From Bryobacterales bacterium (lineage in GTDB: Bacteria > Acidobacteriota > Terriglobia > Bryobacterales > Bryobacteraceae), in assembly GCA_020852175.1 (NCBI GenBank), contig JADZBH010000050.1, positions 46,038 to 110,037 of the forward strand: a DNA stretch of 64,000 bases, read 5' to 3'. The position numbers and the translations under genes were made by a program. This document shows positions 20,595-45,338 of this stretch, piece after piece (the stretch's first letter is position 1; every line of letters starts with the position of its first letter). The notes under the pieces were generated by a model that saw only the letters and a list, made by a program, of their open reading frames with translations, was not told the DNA's origin and made no database searches.

Positions 20595-21281
20595 TCAGGC
20601 GGCCCGGGCCGTAACCAGATAATGCGTGCCGCGCTGGATCCGGATGGCGGTGAAACCGGCGCGTTCCAGGGCACGCGTGATGGAGGCGTCGGTTTGAAAG
20701 GAGGCATAGCCTTTTCGGGGAAAGTCGATCAGTTTCTGGGCGGCATGGAACAACAACCCATTCACAAGACTAAAGCTCATGAGCACCATGCCGCGGAGGC
20801 TCTCCTCCTTCATCAGCTGTTTCTGTTTATCCCAGGAGTGAAGAGTCATCCAGACGCTGCCCCGCGGTTTCAGAACCCGGCGCACCTCGCCGAGACTGCG
20901 TGTGAGATCGGTATACGGGAGCGAGGTGCGCGCGATCACCATATCGAAAGTCGAGGCGGCGTAGGGAAGAGCTTCCGCGCGGCAGCAGGTGAAACGGACG
21001 TTCTCGCTGAGCGTGCGGCCGAAGCGCATGGAGTCCATGTCGATGTCGCAACCGAAGGAAACAATGCCGGGACGGATGGCTTTGAGGGTTTGTCCGGCGC
21101 CGCACCCGAGGTCGAGGACCTGGTGATGAGGCGGAGGAACGGGCGGGTTGAGATGGCGCGGATGGGAGGGATCGAGGCTGATGGCAAGTTCGGCGAGGTT
21201 GTATTCAATAGCATTTTTCATGTAAGCCCAGTACGGTCCATACCGTGATGTATACCGGACCATAAGCAACTGCATTGCCAC
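20595..21281 (-). CDS. SAM-dependent methyltransferase
   Basis: VLDLGCGAGQTLKAIRPGIVSFGCDIDMDSMRFGR...AEALPYAASTFDMVIARTSLPYT. Confidence 0.88.
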   Translation of the reverse strand: MAMQLLMVRYTSRYGPYWAYMKNAIEYNLAELAISLDPSHPRHLNPPVPPPHHQVLDLGCGAGQTLKAIRPGIVSFGCDIDMDSMRFGRTLSENVRFTCCRAEALPYAASTFDMVIARTSLPYTDLTRSLGEVRRVLKPRGSVWMTLHSWDKQKQLMKEESLRGMVLMSFSLVNGLLFHAAQKLIDFPRKGYASFQTDASITRALERAGFTAIRIQRGTHYLVTARAA

Positions 21282-34106: not shown

Positions 34107-35240
34107 ATGATGGCGCACACGATGGAAGAGATGAAAGCCACGCCCGATTTCCGTCTGGCGCGGAGCGGGCGATTTCTGGTGGCGGAACTCCTCCGGCCGC
34201 ATTCCGTGTTGAGCACCTCGGTGCGCGGCGGCGGCCGCCAGGATTCGTTGCGCTACCTGGTGAACCATCAAAGCTGTGAAGGCGCCGGGCATCGCGAGCG
34301 GTACGAAATGATCTCCGAAATGGGGCAGGAAGGGTACCACGACAGCGCGTGCGCCGAAATCGGGCTCGATCCGGCGGCGGTGGCGATGATGGGAACGGCG
34401 GCCAACATGAACTACGCGGCTCTGGTGGACGCCGCCCACGAAGGGTTATGCGTGATGGCGGTCGTGACGGCCGGGGTGCGGGGCAACGCAACATGCGCGG
34501 GCGATCCGTCGGGATGGTGCGAAACCGCTGAGGGCTGGCGGAAGGTTGAGCAGGCGGGCACCATCAACACGATGCTGCTGATGAACCGTCCGTTGACCGA
34601 GGGGGCGCTGGCGCGCGCGGTGGTCACGATGACGGAGGCCAAAAGCGCCGCTCTGCAAAGGTTGGCGGTTCGCAGCCGGTATTCCCCCGATGTCGCCACG
34701 GGCACGGGCACGGATCAGTACTGCCTGGCGGCGGCGAGCACCGGAGCAAGGCCGCTCACCTCGTCGGGACCGCACGTCATGCTCGGCGAACTCATCGGCC
34801 GCGCCGTGCGCGATGCCACGATGGAGGCTCTGCGGTGGCAGAACGGGTTGGAGCCAAGCGAGACGCGCGGTCTGTTTCACGCTCTCGGCTGGATCGGATT
34901 GAAGGAGGCCACCTTCTTTGACGATATCGCCGGAAGGCTGACCGGGCGCGAACTGGAACTGCTTCGCAGCAATGGCAAGCCAGTGATCTATGAGCCGCTG
35001 GTGGCCGCCTCGGCCTACGCGGTCGCCGCCGTCCTGGACCGGGTACGCTACGGAACTTTGCCGGCGGGCGCCGCCAGCGAAGCGCTCCGCCAGCAGGCCG
35101 CCTTGATGGCCGCGAACCTAGCGGCCAAACCGGAGAACTGGCCCGAGTATCGCCGCGCGCTCGTCCGGGCGGAGCCGGAACACGCGCGGGAACTCGTGTT
35201 GGATGCCATCGCGCTTGGCTGGTCGTCGAAGTGGAAATAG
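34107..35240 (+). CDS. cbiZ: Adenosylcobinamide amidohydrolase CbiZ-like
   Basis: LLRPHSVLSTSVRGGG, GTAANMNY, VMAVVTAGVRGNATCAGDP; immediately upstream of cbiB; start chosen at ATG 34107 (ORF extends to 33993). Confidence 0.75.
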   Translation: MMAHTMEEMKATPDFRLARSGRFLVAELLRPHSVLSTSVRGGGRQDSLRYLVNHQSCEGAGHRERYEMISEMGQEGYHDSACAEIGLDPAAVAMMGTAANMNYAALVDAAHEGLCVMAVVTAGVRGNATCAGDPSGWCETAEGWRKVEQAGTINTMLLMNRPLTEGALARAVVTMTEAKSAALQRLAVRSRYSPDVATGTGTDQYCLAAASTGARPLTSSGPHVMLGELIGRAVRDATMEALRWQNGLEPSETRGLFHALGWIGLKEATFFDDIAGRLTGRELELLRSNGKPVIYEPLVAASAYAVAAVLDRVRYGTLPAGAASEALRQQAALMAANLAAKPENWPEYRRALVRAEPEHARELVLDAIALGWSSKWK

Positions 35241-36205
35241 CGGCGCTCGCACCGGACGCATGGCTGCTGGCCGCGGCGGTGGCGCTCGATTTGCTTCTCG
35301 GCGACCCCGTGTATGGCGCGCATCCCGTGCGTCTCATGGGCGGAATGCTCGCCTGGTTTGAGAACCGGTTGCGCGGCGCCGGGTTCAACGGCTATGGCGG
35401 CGGCGTCGCGCTCCTCGGGCTGCTGGCCGCGGTTTGGTGTGGAGGGCTGGCGGTTGCGCTGCTGGCCGCAGCTCGGGTTCACGCCTGGTTGGCCATGGCG
35501 CTACACATCTTCCTTGTCTACTCGCTGCTGGCTTTGCGCGATCTGTTACGCCATGCCTGGGCCGTGGAGCGCGCGGCCCGGCGCGGCGACGTGGCTGGAG
35601 CGCGCGCGGCGGTTGCTCAACTGGTGGGCCGGGACACGAACCGGATGGACTTTGCCGCCTGCCGGCGGGCGGCCATCGAGAGCCTGAGCGAAAATCTCAC
35701 GGATGGTTTCATCAGCCCGCTATTCTGGTACGCTGCGGGCGGCATACCCGGATTGGTGCTGTTCAAGGTGGCCAGCACGATGGACTCGATGGTTGGCTAC
35801 AAATCGAAGAAGTACATTCGCTTCGGGTGGTGCGGCGCGCGACTGGACGATCTGCTGAACCTGTTGCCGGCGCGTCTCACATGGCTTTTACTGGCCGTCG
35901 CGGCGCTCTTCATTCCGGGTTGCTCGGCGGCAAAGGCGCTGAGAACCGGATGGCGTCAGCACGGCATTCTGCCCGGTCCGAATTCGGGCTGGAGCGAAGC
36001 CGCCATCGCGGGCGCGCTGCAACGAAGGCTGATCGGACCCGTCTGGGCCAACGGCCAGTTGGTCACGGCGATTTGGCTGGGTGACGCCGCCGACCCTCCC
36101 GCCGGAGACGCCGCCGATTTGCCGCGCGCCTCGTGGCTCGCCGTCGCGGCGGGCATGGCGGCCGCGGCTCTGACGATCTGCGTCCTCGCACTGCGCGCGC
36201 GTTGA
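35231..36205 (+). CDS. cbiB: Adenosylcobinamide-phosphate synthase (CbiB/CobD)
   Basis: AVALDLLLGDPVYGAHPVRLMGGMLAWFENRL, ESLSENLTDGFISPLFWYAAGGIPGLVLFKVASTMDSMVGYKSKKYIRFGW. Confidence 0.92.
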   Translation: MEIAALAPDAWLLAAAVALDLLLGDPVYGAHPVRLMGGMLAWFENRLRGAGFNGYGGGVALLGLLAAVWCGGLAVALLAAARVHAWLAMALHIFLVYSLLALRDLLRHAWAVERAARRGDVAGARAAVAQLVGRDTNRMDFAACRRAAIESLSENLTDGFISPLFWYAAGGIPGLVLFKVASTMDSMVGYKSKKYIRFGWCGARLDDLLNLLPARLTWLLLAVAALFIPGCSAAKALRTGWRQHGILPGPNSGWSEAAIAGALQRRLIGPVWANGQLVTAIWLGDAADPPAGDAADLPRASWLAVAAGMAAAALTICVLALRAR

Positions 36206-38280: not shown

Positions 38281-39219
38281 TCAGCCGTTCCGGCCGCGCC
38301 CGCTCAACGTGAGCGCCGGGCTGAGTACCGTCCCGGTGGCGTACGCGTGAGGCTCGTCCTCGATCCGCACCCGCACCGTGTGGGCGGGAATGGGCTTGCG
38401 TTCGGGAAGGGTCGAACAGGCGATGACGGGGCAGGGCGCGTGGCCGATGACATCGAGTGTATTCGGGCCTGGCCGTGATGCTCCCGAGCCATGTCCGGAG
38501 CCGACCACGATGGCGTCGGCATGCCAGCGCCTGGCTTCCTCGTGCAGAACGGCCGCCACGGCTCCGTGACGCACCTGGACCTGCGCCTGCACCGGGAGCA
38601 GCGACACGAGCGGCTCCAACCGGCGCCGCGCTGCCGCGGAGTCCAATTCGACAGGTGCGTCCGCACGGCTTCCGGCGACACCCAGCATTCCCTCGTCACT
38701 TCCGGCCACGGTATGCACCACCAGGAGTTGCGCGTCCCATGCCGTCGCGCACCGCGAGGCAAACTGCAGGACGGCCTCGCCTTGAGGTCCTGGCCCGATT
38801 CCACAGAGCAACCGCCTGTGGCGTACGGACTCCATGTCCCTGACAATTCTGGGAGGGGCAACCCACACCGGCACGCGCGTCAGCGAAAGCAGTTCCTTCG
38901 TGTTTGAACCACGCAGAAGCTGGCGAATCCAGCCATGGCCCCGCGTGGGCATCAAGATCATATCCGCGCCGATCGCGCGGGCGTGGCTGGCGATGGCATG
39001 AGGCGGGTTTCCCGGCAGAACGGTCTTGGGCGCCGGCGTGTCCGTCCAGGCGTGCTCGAAGCCCTCCGGCCATGAGCGAGGCCTGCCTTGCAGGGAATCG
39101 GCGGCCACGTGGAGCAGGTGCAGCCTGGCCCCCATCGACGCGGCCAGCCGCGTGCCATACTGTAGCGCCACTTCACAGGGCTGCGTCAGGTCGAGTGGCA
39201 GAAGTATCCGACGAATCAT
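38281..39219 (-). CDS. Universal stress protein, tandem UspA domains
   Basis: MIRRILLPLDLTQPCEVALQYGTRLAASMGARLHLLHV...SHARAIGADMILMPTRGHGWIRQLLRGSNTKELL; second domain ends DAIVVGSGHGSGASRPGPNTLDVIGHAPCPVIAC; caggag SD before ATG at 39219. Confidence 0.88.
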   Translation of the reverse strand: MIRRILLPLDLTQPCEVALQYGTRLAASMGARLHLLHVAADSLQGRPRSWPEGFEHAWTDTPAPKTVLPGNPPHAIASHARAIGADMILMPTRGHGWIRQLLRGSNTKELLSLTRVPVWVAPPRIVRDMESVRHRRLLCGIGPGPQGEAVLQFASRCATAWDAQLLVVHTVAGSDEGMLGVAGSRADAPVELDSAAARRRLEPLVSLLPVQAQVQVRHGAVAAVLHEEARRWHADAIVVGSGHGSGASRPGPNTLDVIGHAPCPVIACSTLPERKPIPAHTVRVRIEDEPHAYATGTVLSPALTLSGRGRNG

Positions 39220-39265
39220 GCAGGCGTCTCCTGTCAACCGGAAAGTAATCGGGTCACCCGTTATG

Positions 39266-39281
39266 AGCACGCGCCGTGCCA
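39266..39281 (-). promoter_or_regulatory. Sigma-54 (-24/-12) promoter for the UspA gene
   Basis: Minus strand TGGCACGGCGCGTGCT; GG/GC dinucleotides separated by 10 nt; about 47 nt upstream of ATG 39219. Confidence 0.65.
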
Positions 39282-39313
39282 ATCTCGCCGGTGAGCCTTA
39301 TCGCCGGAGCGTC

Positions 39314-39775
39314 TTAACCAAAATAGTCGCCGTGCGCTTCCGGCTGGTAGAGAATGGCCTCCACCACCAGAGTGGCGAGCACACCCGCCACGGGGCAGGT
39401 GAACCGGCTTCCCGTCCGGGCGCCCAGTAGCGCCGCGCCGAGGGGCGTGAGTACGGAGATCTGTCCCTTGCCGCGATTGGCGCAGGCGGGAAAGGCCAGC
39501 GCCACCTCCATCCTGTGCCCCGATTCCACGTCGCACAGCCGGACACGGGAGTTCATCGTCACCACGTCGTCCGGAATCGACTCCGGCGCGACGGGAATCG
39601 AATGGCGGATGCTCGATTCCAGGTCCTGCAATATCTCCCCTTCGATCCGGTTGCGTACGAACACGGATTGCAGCAGCAAGCGCTCGGCATCGGGAATGGT
39701 GATGAGCAAACGGCGCTGGTCCGGAGCCGGACCAGCAGCCATCGCGGACGGGGACATCAGTTGCGTATCCAGCAC
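39314..39775 (-). CDS. GreA/GreB-family (Rnk-like) elongation-factor-type protein
   Basis: IPDDVVTMNSRVRLCDVESGHRMEVALAFPACANRGKGQISVLTPLGAALLGARTGSRF. Confidence 0.8.
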   Translation of the reverse strand: MLDTQLMSPSAMAAGPAPDQRRLLITIPDAERLLLQSVFVRNRIEGEILQDLESSIRHSIPVAPESIPDDVVTMNSRVRLCDVESGHRMEVALAFPACANRGKGQISVLTPLGAALLGARTGSRFTCPVAGVLATLVVEAILYQPEAHGDYFG

Positions 39776-39793
39776 GGGGATTCCTCGCTACGC

Positions 39794-40015
39794 TTACCAG
39801 TTACAGCGGTTGGGACATTTCCAGAAGCCTCGTGGAAGCGAACCATCCGGAATGGGTTCGGGAAACCATGTGGAGCCGCAGCGTTCACACTGGAGCGCCC
39901 TGCCGTAGCGGTTCAGCAACCGTACTCCGAGCTTGGCCATCGCGGCCCCGGTTAACCGTTGTTTGTCTTCCCGGGTGATCGTATCGGTCATGGGTATCGT
40001 GTCGTTCATGGGCAT
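39794..40015 (-). CDS. Small zinc-ribbon-like protein
   Basis: CERCGSTWFPEPIPDGSLPRGFWKCPNRC two Cys pairs; aaggag SD 9 nt before ATG at 40015. Confidence 0.6.
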   Translation of the reverse strand: MPMNDTIPMTDTITREDKQRLTGAAMAKLGVRLLNRYGRALQCERCGSTWFPEPIPDGSLPRGFWKCPNRCNW

Positions 40016-40475
40016 GGTAACGGTCTCCTTCCTGTAGGGTGATTCTCCGCGCTTCGGCGCGGCGCAGAACGTCGCGCCACCTGTGCGCGGCCGAGTGCAG
40101 CGCCGGATGTTGCGGCGTGGCGAGCGCGCCCCCGATGGCCTCGGCCGCTTCGGCCCGCGACGCCTCGCCAGTGGCGGCGCACTCCGCGGCCAGAACGTGG
40201 CTTACGGCGGCGCCGGCCAGAAGGCGCAGATGGATGTCCGCGCTCACGTCGGCGAGGATGCGCGCCGCGGCTAGCAGCACCGCATCCGCGGGGGTATCCA
40301 GCTTGACGATCGCCTGTAGTCCGGCCTGCCGCAGCCTTGGGTTGAAGGGATACCTCACCAGCCGGGCCAGACCGCACTGATTCTGGTTCAGAGTGCCGCT
40401 GTCGCGGATCTGCTTGAGTTGATCGAGCACCCGGCTCCACTCCCGCAAGTCGCCAAACGGATCGCAGAGGTTCAT
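39885..40475 (-). CDS. Hypothetical HEAT-like helical protein; 3' part overlaps the zinc-ribbon ORF in another frame
   Basis: RLRQAGLQAIVKLDTPADAVLLAAARILADVSADIHLRLLAGAAVSHVLAAECAATGEASRAEAAEAIGGAL; the tail after about 40020 looks non-coding-like; start may be an internal GTG. Confidence 0.4.
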   Translation of the reverse strand: MNLCDPFGDLREWSRVLDQLKQIRDSGTLNQNQCGLARLVRYPFNPRLRQAGLQAIVKLDTPADAVLLAAARILADVSADIHLRLLAGAAVSHVLAAECAATGEASRAEAAEAIGGALATPQHPALHSAAHRWRDVLRRAEARRITLQEGDRYHAHERHDTHDRYDHPGRQTTVNRGRDGQARSTVAEPLRQGAPV

Positions 40476-40489
40476 TCACTGTGAATGTG

Positions 40490-40505
40490 TGCAAGTTCGG
40501 GGCCA
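40490..40505 (-). promoter_or_regulatory. Sigma-54 promoter upstream of the 40475->39314 unit
   Basis: Minus strand TGGCCCCGAACTTGCA; canonical -24/-12 spacing. Confidence 0.65.
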
Positions 40506-40651
40506 CTTGGCGGCGTGCCGGCGAAGCCATTTCCCGAAGGAAATCAGGCTCAACCGCTTGCCCCGGCATCGTGAGGTGCCGCAATGCGGGCACTGCTGCC
40601 TGTTTTCAGGCACCTGCCCGGCGGCTCCGTCCCGTTTGACCGGCCGTTCGC

Positions 40652-42043
40652 CTAGAGTGCGGGCTCCTCGTCATCGCCGCGGCGGCGAATGCCGTGTTTT
40701 TCCATCCGGTAGATCAACGCCTTACGGCTGACATCGAGATACTTCGCCGCCTGGGTCTGGTTGCCGTGGAAGCGATCCAGCGCGCGCAGGATCAGATCCT
40801 TTTCCACCGCCTCCAGGCTCACTCCATGCGCCGGAAGCTGCAATTGCAACATATCCACGGCCGGACGCTCGCGTTGCAGGAAATCCGGCAAATCGGCCAG
40901 AGCAATCTCATCGCCACGAGCCAATACGACGATCCGCTCCATTACGTTCTCCAACTCGCGGATGTTGCCCGGCCAGCGGTAATCCTGAAAGCGCGTCATC
41001 AGCCCGCCTGGTAAAACCAGTTCAGGCCGCCCCTGCTCCTGCTTGGCCTTGCGGAAAAAGTGCTGCACCAGTTCGGGGATGTCGTCGGCGCGGTTCCGTA
41101 GCGGCGGCAACTCCAGCGGAATCACCGCCAGACGGTAGTACAGATCCTCGCGGAACGTGCCGTCCTCGATCATCGCCTTCAAATTGCGGTGTGTCGCCGC
41201 CACGATGCGCACGTCCACCTTCACCGGTGCGGTCGCGCCCACCTTCTCCAGTTCCCCCTGCTGAATCAACCGCAGCAGTTTCACTTGCAGTTCGCCCGGC
41301 ATCTCGCCGATCTCGTCGAGAAACAGCGTGCCCCCATTGGCCAGTTCCACCTTGCCCGCCTTGTGCGTCATCGCCCCGGTGAAGGCGCCCTTCATGTGGC
41401 CGAACAGTTCCGACTCCAGCAGGTCGCGCGGAATGGCGCCGCAGTTGATCGTCACGAAGGGTTTATCGCGCCGCCTGCTGTTGACGTGAATCGCCCGGGC
41501 AAGCAGTTCCTTGCCCGTTCCCGTTTCGGCATGGATGAGAATGGTGGAGTTGCTCTGGGCCGCGCGGGCCGCCATGTCCAGAACGGACAGCAGGGACTCC
41601 GAGTGGCCGATGATGTTCTCAAAGCCATATTTGCGGTCCAGGCTCGACCGGAGCGCGCGGACCTCTTCGAGCAGCCGGAAGTGATCGAGCACCCGGCTTA
41701 CCGACAGGCCGAGTTCATCGTAGTCGATGGGCTTGGTCAGATAATCGTACGCCCCGGCGCGCATCGCGTCCACGGCGCTTTGAATGCTGCCGAACGCCGT
41801 GATGATGACGGCAGGAATTTCCGGATGCAGGCGGCGCATGCGGTCGAGCAGGTCGATGCCCGACATTCCCGGCATTTTCCAGTCTGTGAGCACGAGCGAG
41901 GGCGGCTCCCGGTCCATCTCCTCTAAAGCCGCTTCGCCTCCGGAGGCCGTCACCACGCTGTAGCCCATCTCCTCCAACTGCGTCTGGAGCACCCAGCGCA
42001 GGTTGTCGTCGTCGTCCACCACCAAAATGCGCGCCGGTGTCAT
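40652..42043 (-). CDS. NtrC-family sigma-54-dependent response regulator
   Basis: REC domain [35 protein letters not shown]+ [33 protein letters not shown]-terminal Fis-type [27 protein letters not shown]. Confidence 0.95.
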
Positions 42044-43149
42044 CCGTTTTGCACACCGGCCGGCAGGACCACAGAAAAGGTCATGCCGGGCCCTTCGTTG
42101 GCCCGCGCCAGCAGGGAGCCTCCCATCTGGCGTACGATCTGGTGGGCAACGGGCAGGCCGAGGCCGGTGCCGTGCTCCTTGGTGGTGAAAAAGGGATCGA
42201 ACAGACGGTCGATGTGAGCGGCGTCCACGCCATGGCCCTGGTCCTTCACGCCGATGGAGATGCGGCCGCCGCCCGCCGCGGCCGACAGGGTGACGGTCCC
42301 TCCGTCCGGGCTCGCCTCGATGGCATTGATCATAAGGTTTAGAAGCACCTGCTCCAGATGTTCAGGATCGCATTCGGCCGCCAGAAGATCGTCCTCGACC
42401 GACTTTTCAAAGTGAACCGTCTTGCCGCGCACGCCGTGGCTGGCCAGTTCCAGCACATGTTCCAACACTGGCCCCAGTTGCAGCAAGCGGAGCCTCGGAG
42501 GGCGCGGCCGGGCGAAGTTGAGAAAATTCGTCAGCAGGCCGTCCAAACGGTCGCATTCGCTGGAGATGATTTCCAGGCACTTCGAGTTTTTTGGATCCAG
42601 AGCCTGGCCCCGCGCGAGAATGGCCGCCGCACCGGAAATGCTCGCCAGCGGGTTGCGGATCTCATGCGCCAGACCGGCTGAAAGTTGACCGATGGCCGAG
42701 AGGCGCTCAGCGCGCTTCATGCCGTCGAAGTTGGCCTGAACCCGCTCATAGACGCTGCTCAACTGGCCGGCCATGCGCTGGTAGTGTAACCGCAACTTTC
42801 TCTCGCGGCCCGCCGTAAGCGAGGCCGCGGCAGCCAGCGCAAGCAGTGCGGCGGCCTGGGCGGCTCCTGCGGGCAGGAACGGGTGCGGCGTCCACGCGGC
42901 GGAACTGGCCGAGGACAGCAGCGCGGCCCCCACACCGCCCGCCCAGCCAAGCCAGGCCGCGGCCAGCAACACGGGAATGCTGTATCCTGCCGCCGCGCCT
43001 CCAGGCGTCCAACGGTCCGCCGCCATGGCAATGCCGAAGACAAGCAGGCACACAGCCCAGCGCACGCCGGGCCTGGCCGCGCCGCCATCCAGAAGATTGT
43101 TGAACCGGCTTGTGACCGCCGCGCCTCTCCCAGCCTCACTTGCCCTCAC
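42040..43149 (-). CDS. Sensor histidine kinase
   Basis: LSAGLAHEIRNPLASISGAAAIL (H-box), NLMINAIEASPDGG (N-box), DQGHGVD...HGTGLGLPVAHQIV; TM segments at the N-terminus; ATGA overlap with the regulator. Confidence 0.93.
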   Translation of the reverse strand: MRASEAGRGAAVTSRFNNLLDGGAARPGVRWAVCLLVFGIAMAADRWTPGGAAAGYSIPVLLAAAWLGWAGGVGAALLSSASSAAWTPHPFLPAGAAQAAALLALAAAASLTAGRERKLRLHYQRMAGQLSSVYERVQANFDGMKRAERLSAIGQLSAGLAHEIRNPLASISGAAAILARGQALDPKNSKCLEIISSECDRLDGLLTNFLNFARPRPPRLRLLQLGPVLEHVLELASHGVRGKTVHFEKSVEDDLLAAECDPEHLEQVLLNLMINAIEASPDGGTVTLSAAAGGGRISIGVKDQGHGVDAAHIDRLFDPFFTTKEHGTGLGLPVAHQIVRQMGGSLLARANEGPGMTFSVVLPAGVQNG

Positions 43150-43229
43150 TCAGCATTTCCTCTCCACACATGATGGGGGCAAACCGAGTGCGCTGGCAAC
43201 CGGCGGCGGCGCGAGGCCACCGAGGCGTC

Positions 43230-43655
43230 TTATGCGATGGTAGCCAGGGGCGCGTTGTGCGGTACGGCAATGCTTTCCATGGAACGCGTAATGCGCTTCT
43301 GCAAGCTGGCCAGCGGATCGCGCACGCTCTCGGGAATCCCGCTTTGCCGTGCATCCATGTTTCGCACCAGGGCCTCGCTTTGCCACTGATCGCCCGTCAC
43401 CACGACAGGTTGCGGAATCAGCAGCGCCGCGCCCCTGTGAAACACCGCCGCTTCCAGCAGAACGGCCGGGTCATCCACATAAATCACAGTGCATGGCGCC
43501 ACGCCCGCTCCCAGTTCGTTCCGGATGCGCCCGGCCACATCGAGTTCCATGGCGGTTCGCAAACCGTGTTTGTGTAGCGCCGAGCGTACCCGGGCGAGAG
43601 CAACCTCATAAGGTTCGGTGAGCGTGTAGGTGACTACTGCCGGTTCGCTGAACAT
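43230..43655 (-). CDS. DUF302-domain protein
   Basis: TYTLTEPYEVALARVRSALHKHGLRTAMELDVAGRI...CTVIYVDDPAVLLEAAVFHRGAALLIPQPVVVTG. Confidence 0.75.
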   Translation of the reverse strand: MFSEPAVVTYTLTEPYEVALARVRSALHKHGLRTAMELDVAGRIRNELGAGVAPCTVIYVDDPAVLLEAAVFHRGAALLIPQPVVVTGDQWQSEALVRNMDARQSGIPESVRDPLASLQKRITRSMESIAVPHNAPLATIA

Positions 43656-43682
43656 GTTCGTGTTGATCCCGCATAATCAGTT

Positions 43683-43698
43683 AGCAATCGGCTCGCCA
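43683..43698 (-). promoter_or_regulatory. Sigma-54 promoter for the DUF302 gene
   Basis: Minus strand TGGCGAGCCGATTGCT; canonical spacing; 28 nt upstream of ATG 43655. Confidence 0.6.
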
Positions 43699-43801
43699 TT
43701 GTGCGTACGATCCTCCAGGGTGCATCCACAGCCTCACGGCCCGCCACGCAGGGGGGACTGGCTTCCTGGCTGCCTCTTACCGGACAGCATTGTGCGTTTT
43801 G

Positions 43802-43826
43802 GGGCAGTCCCTGTACGGCACTGCCC
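43802..43826. promoter_or_regulatory. Inverted repeat, candidate NtrC-type enhancer (UAS)
   Basis: GGGCAGT-ccctgtacggc-ACTGCCC perfect 7-bp arms between two divergent sigma-54 promoters. Confidence 0.45.
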
Positions 43827-43867
43827 GGATTCGCTTGTATTTGGCCTGTTTTGAACGTTTGCGGGTT

Positions 43868-43883
43868 TGGCAAGCCACTTGCA
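43868..43883 (+). promoter_or_regulatory. Sigma-54 promoter for the Rnk-like gene at 43935
   Basis: TGGCAAGCCACTTGCA; canonical spacing. Confidence 0.7.
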
Positions 43884-43898
43884 CTATGACTGGCTTCA

Positions 43899-43914
43899 GG
43901 CACGGATCCGTGCC
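43899..43914. repeat. 16-bp perfect palindrome in the predicted 5' leader
   Basis: GGCACGGATCCGTGCC. Confidence 0.8.
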
Positions 43915-43934
43915 AAGTTTCTGGGAGGCACGTT

Positions 43935-44345
43935 ATGCGAGATCGGATCTACATCACCGAAGAAGACGCAGGGAGGCTGCGCAGGCTCATCGCCGGACGC
44001 AGGGCGGGACATACCTCCGACGATAGCTATCTCGATCTGCTCGAGCAGGAGTTGGATCGGGCCGAACTGGTGGAACCCAGCGCGATTCCGGCTGACGTTG
44101 TCACCATGAACTCCGAGGTCAGCTTGAAGGATCTCGACTCGGGAGAGATTCGTGAGTACCGCCTGATCTTCCCGACCCAGAGCAGGACGGAGACCAGCGT
44201 CTCCGTGCTAGCCCCCATTGGCACGGCCATGCTCGGCTATCGCACGGGCGATGTCTTCGAGTGGCGTGTGCCCAAGGGGATCCGCCGCTTGAAGGTGTTG
44301 AAGGTCATGCACCAGCCCGAGGCCGTGGCCGCCGGACGGCACTAG
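43935..44345 (+). CDS. GreA/GreB-family (Rnk-like) protein
   Basis: IPADVVTMNSEVSLKDLDSGEIREYRLIFPTQSRTETSVSVLAPIGTAMLGYRTGDVFEWRVPKGIRRLKVLKVMHQPEA. Confidence 0.85.
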   Translation: MRDRIYITEEDAGRLRRLIAGRRAGHTSDDSYLDLLEQELDRAELVEPSAIPADVVTMNSEVSLKDLDSGEIREYRLIFPTQSRTETSVSVLAPIGTAMLGYRTGDVFEWRVPKGIRRLKVLKVMHQPEAVAAGRH

Positions 44346-44580
44346 CCGTCCAGCGCCCGGTTCTTGCATGGAGAACCGCCTTCGGAGCCCGGCCAGCCAC
44401 GTACGCAAGCCGGGCATGATTCCCTGAAGGCGGCCAAAATACAACGGCGCGGTCGAGGCGCGTAAAGCCCTCGCCGCGCCGTTTGGCCGTTCAGAGCAAG
44501 CGATTCGGAAGGCACTTAAACAGGCGCCCCCGTGCTTTGCGGCCGTCTTGACGCCGCATCCGCAGTGGGGCAGGCCTCGA

Positions 44581-44808
44581 TCAGACAGCTTCGAAGCCCG
44601 CCTCAACCGCCATGGCGACCGGGTCCGGCTCGCCGAACCCGCCAGCACCAATCTCCGCTCGAATCCACCGGAAGCCTACCCAAAGGCTCACCGCCAGCAC
44701 GGACACCAGCAGGAACGTCAACGCCCGCAAAAGCAGCACATCGGTGCAACTCGACCGCCGGTGGGCTTCGCGCCCCTCCTGACAACACTCCCTTAGATAC
44801 CGTCGCAC
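44581..44808 (-). CDS. Short single-TM protein (75 aa)
   Basis: GTG start at 44808 with AGGAGG 6 nt upstream; VRRYLRECCQEGREAHRRSSCTDVLLLRALTFLLVSVLAVSLWVGFRWIRAEIGAG...; start overlaps the upstream gene's end. Confidence 0.6.
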   Translation of the reverse strand: MRRYLRECCQEGREAHRRSSCTDVLLLRALTFLLVSVLAVSLWVGFRWIRAEIGAGGFGEPDPVAMAVEAGFEAV

Positions 44809-45293
44809 GACGCACCTCCTTCCTCGCCCCGTTGCATCCACGCATGCCAGGCGCTCGCCACGCTCCACATTACTTCGGACTCCCGCAGCGGGCTCGCCAG
44901 CACGTCGAAACCGCCCTGTGCCGTTACCTCGTGCTCCAAGGCCCGGATATCGCCCACAACGATCAGCGCCGGAGGGTCCGGTACCGTCTCCAGCAGACCG
45001 GCGATGTCCAGCCATGTGCCATCCGGAAGCGTCTCTTCACAAATCACCACCGCCGTGCCTCCGGGGCGCAGCAGCGCTTCTCCGGCCGCGCACGTGGCCG
45101 CCGATGCCGTCGTCCATCCCAGGTTTTGAAACAAGCCGGAAATGTAGAGGCTCAACGTCACATTGCCGATGGCTACAATGTCGATTTCCGGGCGCTCATG
45201 CGGCTGAAGCGCCGCCGGCCTGAGTGAGGCCATTGGCTGCGTCCGGCCGATCTTCGAAGGCGCGCTGGGTGCATATGCAGTCATCGGGTTCAT
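44793..45293 (-). CDS. Response-regulator receiver-like protein (degenerate REC fold)
   Basis: EIDIVAIGNVTLSLYISGLFQNLGWTTASAATCAAGEALLRPGGTAVVICEETLPDGTWLDIAGLLETVPDPPALIVVGD. Confidence 0.55.
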   Translation of the reverse strand: MNPMTAYAPSAPSKIGRTQPMASLRPAALQPHERPEIDIVAIGNVTLSLYISGLFQNLGWTTASAATCAAGEALLRPGGTAVVICEETLPDGTWLDIAGLLETVPDPPALIVVGDIRALEHEVTAQGGFDVLASPLRESEVMWSVASAWHAWMQRGEEGGASCDGI

Positions 45294-45322
45294 CCTTTCG
45301 TGGAGGGTTACCCTAAAACGAT

Positions 45323-45338
45323 TGCAATTCGCGGGCCA
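45323..45338 (-). promoter_or_regulatory. Sigma-54 promoter for the REC-like/TM-protein unit
   Basis: Minus strand TGGCCCGCGAATTGCA; canonical spacing; 30 nt upstream of ATG 45293. Confidence 0.65.

Follow-up and report, generated by a model that had tools for sequence, protein, structure and literature searches.

Does a short stretch of chromosome that carries five sigma-54 elements around one NtrC-type two-component system operate as a local regulon? The question is raised by an island of 6.07 kb (positions 39266-45338) within the window, meaning the whole analysed stretch of 64,000 nt from a Bryobacterales bacterium (Acidobacteriota; GCA_020852175.1, contig JADZBH010000050.1) with a genome of ~5 Mb. 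An earlier note on this DNA had described the island as a self-contained regulon with a plausible stress or dormancy role. The present analysis, drawn from sequence, indicates with a probability of about 0.82 that the island is a local sigma-54 regulon under its own NtrC-type system. The promoters, the enhancers, their conservation, the helical phasing and the complete two-component system were read in the DNA, and from these we infer the binding, the transcriptional read-through, the physiology and the signal. The new element is a palindromic enhancer (UAS), TGYSCG-TTTT-CRGGCA. While the regulon is of a familiar type, its target set is unusual, and a literature search returned no paper on Bryobacterales or Solibacter that describes a sigma-54 regulon of Rnk and Usp, nor any report of such a compact sigma-54 regulon for Acidobacteriota.

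The two-component system

The response regulator (40652-42043, minus strand) displays the NtrC-family features that were looked for, namely a receiver, an AAA+ domain with the GAFTGA motif in its translation and a Fis-type HTH (PF00158, E 2e-71; PF00072, E 2e-30; PF02954, E 3e-14), together with a palindromic enhancer 5' of -24/-12 elements. Its PDB relatives are NtrC1, LuxO, NtrX and ZraR. As the earlier note held, it is the only clear enhancer-binding protein of the window; the genome encodes 13 clear full-length sigma-54 activators and a single copy of rpoN. The histidine kinase (42040-43149, minus strand), whose gene overlaps that of the regulator by 4 bp, was recognised in a domain search by HisKA and HATPase_c behind a hydrophobic N-terminus, and is a single membrane kinase that carries no known sensor domain.

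Both proteins stayed below the equivalog cut-offs compared. The regulator scored 463.1 bits against the NtrC equivalog TIGR01818 (cut-off 558.6), and 470.2 and 395.7 bits against the AtoC and ZraR equivalogs (cut-offs 714 and 760). The kinase reached 215 and 207 bits against the AtoSC and ZraSR equivalogs (cut-offs 646 and 479). AtoSC and ZraSR are thus among the best-scoring NCBIfam models for the pair, yet the scores lie far under the cut-offs and the target genes are unrelated.

The -24/-12 elements

The five 16-mers proposed in the earlier note were confirmed in position and strand, and all of them lie outside called genes and 5' of a correctly oriented start, with the GG and GC doublets of -24/-12 promoters at the fixed spacing. 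Four are on the minus strand: TGGCACGGCGCGTGCT (39266-39281) precedes a tandem universal stress protein (Usp) of 313 aa (38281-39222, minus strand; PF00582, E 8e-40), TGGCCCCGAACTTGCA (40490-40505) the HEAT/Zn-ribbon/Rnk unit, TGGCGAGCCGATTGCT (43683-43698) the DUF302-like gene, and TGGCCCGCGAATTGCA (45323-45338) the REC-like/TM unit. The fifth, TGGCAAGCCACTTGCA (43868-43883), is on the plus strand before Rnk. The distance from element to start is 47 nt for Usp, 28 nt for DUF302 and 52 nt for Rnk; for the REC-like gene it is 90 nt with the start chosen by the gene caller, or ~30 nt to an upstream ATG at 45293. The annotated HEAT ATG lies only ~14-15 nt past the -12 element, which suggests that the true start is further downstream, or that this promoter mainly serves the zinc-ribbon and Rnk genes.

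The strict pattern TGGCN7TTGCW is matched by four of the five elements, the one before Usp ending in GTGCT instead of TTGCT. This pattern occurs 7 times in the window, in comparison with 1.2 +/- 1.1 in shuffles (0/100 reached 7), and 147 times across the whole genome, against 69 for the reversed pattern. With 5 strict matches in 6.07 kb, the island is the densest strict-site cluster of the genome, and random placement gave a cluster as dense in 75 of 20000 trials. Three matches were discarded as promoters or regulon members: the one at 40901-40916 lies inside the regulator gene and is considered background, that at 35280-35295 lies inside the ORF 35231-36205, and a 16-mer identical to TGGCCCGCGAATTGCA near another activator (C41:38453) lies inside a called gene. 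By using a matrix of sigma-54 base frequencies, 10 promoter-positioned sites scoring >=13 were found in 425 kb of the same genome, a sample that deliberately took in the neighbourhoods of other enhancer-binding proteins, and 5 of the 10 are in the island. The strict pattern and the conservation are independent of this matrix. The five elements are not a product of chance.

Since the region had been picked for these motifs, the main support comes from conservation, which is independent of the picking. The sister species retains 75 of the 80 bases that make up the five sites (16/16 for DUF302; 15/16 for each of Usp, the HEAT unit and Rnk; 14/16 for the REC-like unit). Intergenic DNA outside the sites is 63-67% identical around Usp, around HEAT and between DUF302 and Rnk, and 83% identical in the REC region. 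The HEAT-unit site is kept there although the HEAT gene itself has been deleted, and the promoters of Rnk, DUF302 and HEAT are found again in ~20 Bryobacterales loci.

The enhancer palindrome and the genes beside it

Rnk and DUF302 are divergently oriented, and two copies of the palindrome lie between their promoters. The main copy, TGTGCGTTTTGGGGCA (43791-43806), is common to both promoters and has a conserved core; the second, weaker copy, TGCCTCTTACCGGACA (43771-43786), is exactly 20 bp away, and the 20-bp pair also appears in loci L114, L115, L120 and L163. A perfect 16-bp palindrome, TGCCTGAAAACAGGCA (40597-40612), precedes the HEAT-unit promoter by 91 bp and is identical in the sister species (16/16). 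Across 8 aligned regions TGTGCGTTT is invariant where the mean column identity is 45%, and the distance from UAS to the Rnk site is 56, 65-69 or 77-79 bp, in steps of one helical turn. The exact pattern TGYSYGWWWWCRSRCA has a single match in the 5-Mb genome, the island copy at 40597-40612; with up to one mismatch, 25 places were found against 10 for the control. Among 15 near-UAS places inspected, that of the island is the only one with a sigma-54 site spaced as promoter and enhancer would be. The reading as a sigma-54 island built on one complete two-component system of NtrC type is supported, and it now has a matching enhancer that is nearly island-specific genome-wide.

The genes downstream are unevenly characterised. 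The plus-strand Rnk (43935-44345), an RNA-polymerase-binding 'nucleoside diphosphate kinase regulator', is a true family member (NF004396, 120.6 bits, cut-off 109; E. coli Rnk, PDB 3bmb, E 4e-24). The DUF302-like protein (43230-43655, minus strand), whose gene probably heads a DUF302-HK-RR transcript, is recognisable through homologues alone (locus L126, E 5e-9): PF03625 gave no match for the window protein, 36.3 bits for the L126 homologue and 18.5 for the L120 orthologue, with a cut-off of 23. The 'HEAT-like' protein (39885-40475, minus strand) is all-helical and HEAT/ARM-like, without a significant PDB match and with weak matches to designed armadillo proteins alone (E 1.4e-3, TM 0.41); its C-terminal part, which overlaps the zinc-ribbon gene, is missing from the orthologues. 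The zinc-ribbon-like protein of 73 aa (39794-40015, minus strand) has no Pfam match and is 89% identical in G001 and 42-64% in other genera. The remaining Rnk-like protein (39314-39775, minus strand) carries the GreA_GreB C-terminal domain (PF01272) but scores 87.6 bits against NF004396, below the cut-off of 109, so the name Rnk given to it earlier is loose. No sigma-54 site of its own was found, and it is probably the last gene of the HEAT/Zn-ribbon/Rnk unit.

In related loci, Rnk2-class genes have a sigma-54 site in 23/25 cases, 22 of them with a UAS. DUF302 has the site in 13/20 loci, each time accompanied by a UAS, and lacks it in 7/20; for HEAT both occur in 6/8. Operon-internal control genes gave 0/26 (RR), 1/24 (HK) and 0/13 (MreB), and the UAS was found in 0/23 Rnk loci outside the Bryobacterales. 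These locus counts overstate the independent evidence, because several of the genomes are near neighbours. As seeds of the UAS matrix, 8 sites spotted by eye in these loci were used, so their own scores are circular; most of the related loci were added later and did not serve as seeds. UAS-bearing orthologues of the regulator have SRKAL in the recognition helix, and sister regulators mostly SRRTL, SRKTL or SRKVL, a correlation with few independent changes. TGYSCGTTTTCRGGCA is the predicted target of the regulator.

That the regulon is self-contained is well supported where Rnk, DUF302(-HK-RR) and the unit of HEAT, Zn-ribbon and Rnk-like genes are concerned, with sites and UAS in ~20 related loci, and less so for Usp and the REC-like unit, where no UAS was found within 250 bp of the sites, even with lower thresholds. 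The REC-like protein (44793-45293, minus strand) has a receiver fold (AlphaFold core pLDDT ~95; Foldseek to REC domains, best E 5e-7, TM 0.79 by target), but motif alignment places a Glu at the phospho-acceptor Asp position, after an invariant Cys (C-E-E motif). Its gene overlaps that of a single-TM protein of 75 aa with a GTG start (44581-44808, minus strand; 81% in the sister species). Usp and the REC-like/TM unit are probably sigma-54-driven; their tie to the local regulator is less sure.

It may be, and we regard this as a serious if not favoured possibility, that the island is mixed: Rnk, DUF302(-HK-RR) and the HEAT unit would obey the local regulator, and Usp and REC-like/TM another activator, or the local one acting over >1 kb. 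The missing UAS, here and in most relatives, and about a dozen other activators in the genome speak for such an arrangement. Against it, the sister species has kept both sites, other genera retain in the island REC-like genes that have a sigma-54 site, and a weak UAS-like match precedes the REC-like genes of loci L121 and L154.

Two further explanations carry less weight. The link between regulator and UAS rests on co-occurrence, so the palindrome could belong to another palindrome-binding regulator while this one controls genes elsewhere; we consider it improbable, as the UAS adjoin sigma-54 promoters at helically phased distances, and do so in the clade having the system beside Rnk, few UAS occur elsewhere in the genome, and NtrC-family consensus sites are similar palindromes (NmpR, GCGCA-N5-TGCGC; PMC11841059). 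That the elements are chance TGGC-N-TGC matches chosen by eye in a GC-rich genome would agree with the 147 genome matches and with most matches in the sampled stretches not being promoter-positioned. Density, promoter position, fixed gene and enhancer distances and conservation in ~20 related loci make it extremely unlikely, and for the Rnk, DUF302 and HEAT promoters conservation and phasing rule it out. Altogether, the evidence strongly supports a local NtrC-type regulon, with the HK-RR genes themselves probably among its targets.

Proposed output and related systems

In the proposed mechanism, a membrane-sensed signal would lead the kinase to phosphorylate the regulator, which would oligomerise on the enhancer pair of Rnk/DUF302 and on the single enhancer of the HEAT unit. 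Through its GAFTGA loop it would then open sigma-54 polymerase at the -24/-12 promoters, with Rnk, DUF302 and the HEAT/Zn-ribbon/Rnk-like unit as outputs, and read-through of the DUF302 transcript into HK-RR may provide positive feedback. Since the products bear mainly on RNA polymerase and on survival under stress, switching them on would probably slow down or shield a cell that is not growing, and we infer a stress or dormancy role for the island. Sigma-54 sites also precede HPF-like (5/5) and DksA/TraR-like (5/6) genes of relatives, which favours a growth-arrest role. In the own genome the single HPF match is beside rpoN (C5), and the island has none. Tentatively, the system could be a dedicated brake on gene expression that converts one membrane signal into Rnk, Rnk-like and Usp (in relatives also DksA-like and hibernation-factor-like proteins), an activator-controlled growth-arrest route beside the stringent response, with the pseudo-receiver (Asp to Glu) as extra output or feedback.

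To our knowledge, the physiological trigger of Rnk-type polymerase-binding factors is poorly known, and the island ties a membrane sensor to such factors. For Acidobacteriota it also offers a sigma-54 regulon that is compact, open to testing and equipped with a defined enhancer, and an enhancer code readable across many uncultivated genomes, from which candidate growth-arrest genes can be listed.

Among known systems, NmpRSTU of Myxococcus xanthus, induced by low oxygen and with a universal stress protein and a CBS protein among its targets, likewise combines an NtrC-like regulator, palindromic paired enhancers, sigma-54 sites and stress-type targets (PMC11841059). It differs in its enhancer consensus, in relaying its signal through several kinases, one of them heme-binding, where the island has one membrane kinase, and in its targets, which in the island are Rnk/DUF302/REC-like. 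In E. coli NtrBC, NtrC activates relA (PMC4066584), and an NtrC-family sigma-54 activator similarly links a nutrient signal to a transcription-acting factor; the island regulator falls under the NtrC cut-off (463 vs 559 bits), and its targets are Rnk-type, with no nitrogen genes. Unlike E. coli Rnk, the island Rnk is predicted to be under sigma-54 and enhancer control. In many relatives Rnk is followed by an MreB paralogue.

Sigma-54 elements in the island and its relatives

All five -24/-12 elements proposed for the island (39266-45338) were confirmed in position and strand, and each lies in the correct orientation upstream of its gene (Usp, the HEAT unit, DUF302, Rnk and REC-like). The strict pattern TGGCN7TTGCW has 7 matches in the window (1.2 expected); over the whole 5.0 Mb it has 147, and its reversal has 69. 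According to the complete position lists, no other 6.07 kb of the genome is as dense as the island, which has 5 strict matches, one of them within the response regulator (RR) gene; under random placement, a cluster as dense was obtained in 75 of 20000 trials. By using a position matrix of sigma-54 frequencies and a gene caller, 10 promoter-positioned sites were found in 425 kb of the genome, a sample that took in its other activator neighbourhoods, and half of them (5/10) are in the island. The genome harbours a single rpoN copy and 13 clear full-length sigma-54 activators.

Another strong sigma-54-like site, TGGCAATGCAGTTGCT, is located beyond the island (21265-21280, - strand). A second cluster in the same genome (locus L101, G000:C55:62001-79504) lies near another activator, with promoter-positioned sites before genes read, without a family search, as CRP-like, Usp and small receiver-like. 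The rpoN gene and the sole Ribosomal_S30AE (hibernation factor) match in this genome are neighbours (G000:C5:347937-348763), an arrangement known from E. coli.

Relatives were drawn from a search of 60 genomes and then from a named collection, which placed the window among Bryobacterales. The sister species retains all five sites (75/80 bases); the intergenic DNA around them is 63-67% identical near Usp, HEAT and DUF302-Rnk, and 83% identical near REC. Across 25 loci, in which counts overstate independence because many genomes are close neighbours, a sigma-54 site lies ahead of Rnk2-class (23/25), DUF302-like (13/20), HEAT-like (6/8) and REC-like (8/13) genes, the within-locus controls giving 0/26 for RR, 1/24 for the histidine kinase (HK) and 0/13 for MreB. 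In 13 loci a MreB paralogue follows the sigma-54-driven Rnk gene, an arrangement absent from the window (L117:2927-3949; L119:8331-9350; L121:13123-14199; L152 to L163).

A candidate enhancer

Side-by-side comparison of upstream sequences revealed a common palindrome, TGYSCG-TTTT-CRGGCA, a candidate enhancer (UAS) whose matrix was seeded by eye. Two copies, exactly 20 bp apart, lie in the gap that separates the divergent promoters of Rnk and DUF302: the main one at 43791-43806 and a weaker one at 43771-43786. A perfect palindrome (40597-40612) is found upstream of the HEAT-unit promoter. Across eight aligned regions, whose mean column identity is 45%, TGTGCGTTT is unvarying. Among 22 Bryobacterales Rnk loci, 21 carry the sigma-54 site and 20 the UAS, which occurs in 0/23 Rnk loci of other groups. 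The distance to the promoter is 56, 65-69 or 77-79 bp, in steps of one helical turn.

The earlier note had proposed a self-contained local regulon. This is supported, since in this genome the exact UAS is present only in the island. When up to one mismatch is allowed, 25 places match, compared with 10 for the control; of the 15 inspected, the one in the island is alone in having a sigma-54 site at a distance that fits a promoter and its enhancer. No UAS was found near the Usp and REC-like promoters, which makes these two less certain members of the RR's regulon.

The two-component system

The RR (40652..42043) is a complete NtrC-family activator that fits none of the named equivalogs tested. 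In the HK (42040..43149) a hydrophobic N-terminus is followed by HisKA and HATPase_c; family search confidently recognised no sensor domain. DUF302, HK and RR follow this order on one strand, with a 4-bp HK/RR overlap and no sigma-54 site of their own for HK and RR, which suggests that both are also transcribed from the DUF302 promoter, in positive feedback.

In other genera, a sister system (RR 63-67%, HK 43-52% identical) lies near a different palindrome, TGTCCCAAAA-CGTACA / TGTCCCAAATGGGACA (L116:6654-6669; L116:11302-11317; L123:10041; L124:12126; L126:12067; L127:14065), and its recognition helix is mostly SRRTL or SRKTL, versus SRKAL; both differences possibly reflect a specificity split after duplication.

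Putative target proteins and proposed role

The + strand gene (43935..44345) encodes a true Rnk, and the other copy (39314..39775) is Rnk-like. The REC-like protein folds as a receiver, with Glu at the phospho-acceptor Asp position in most orthologues. The HEAT-like protein consists of helices only, and its fold matches are weak; its ATG lies only ~14 bp past the -12 element, and its C-terminal part, overlapping the zinc-ribbon gene, is missing from orthologues. The ORF is ~50 aa longer than these and the overlap is out of frame (131 bp, 39885-40015), possibly through frameshift or decay. In the sister species (L114:8480-8790) the HEAT-like gene is deleted, and the sigma-54 site and a perfect UAS are kept before the zinc-ribbon and Rnk-like genes.

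In the same islands of relatives, sigma-54 sites precede HPF-like (5/5) and DksA/TraR-like (5/6) genes. Together with Rnk, Rnk-like and Usp, these seem to form a group that acts on RNA polymerase, ribosomes and survival, and for this reason our best guess from the gene content is a role in growth arrest or stress. Among studied systems, the closest analogue is the NmpRSTU system of M. xanthus (PMC11841059): low oxygen induces it and a Usp is among its members, although its binding consensus and relay differ. Activation of relA by E. coli NtrC (PMC4066584) offers a likeness in principle, an NtrC-type activator feeding a transcription brake.
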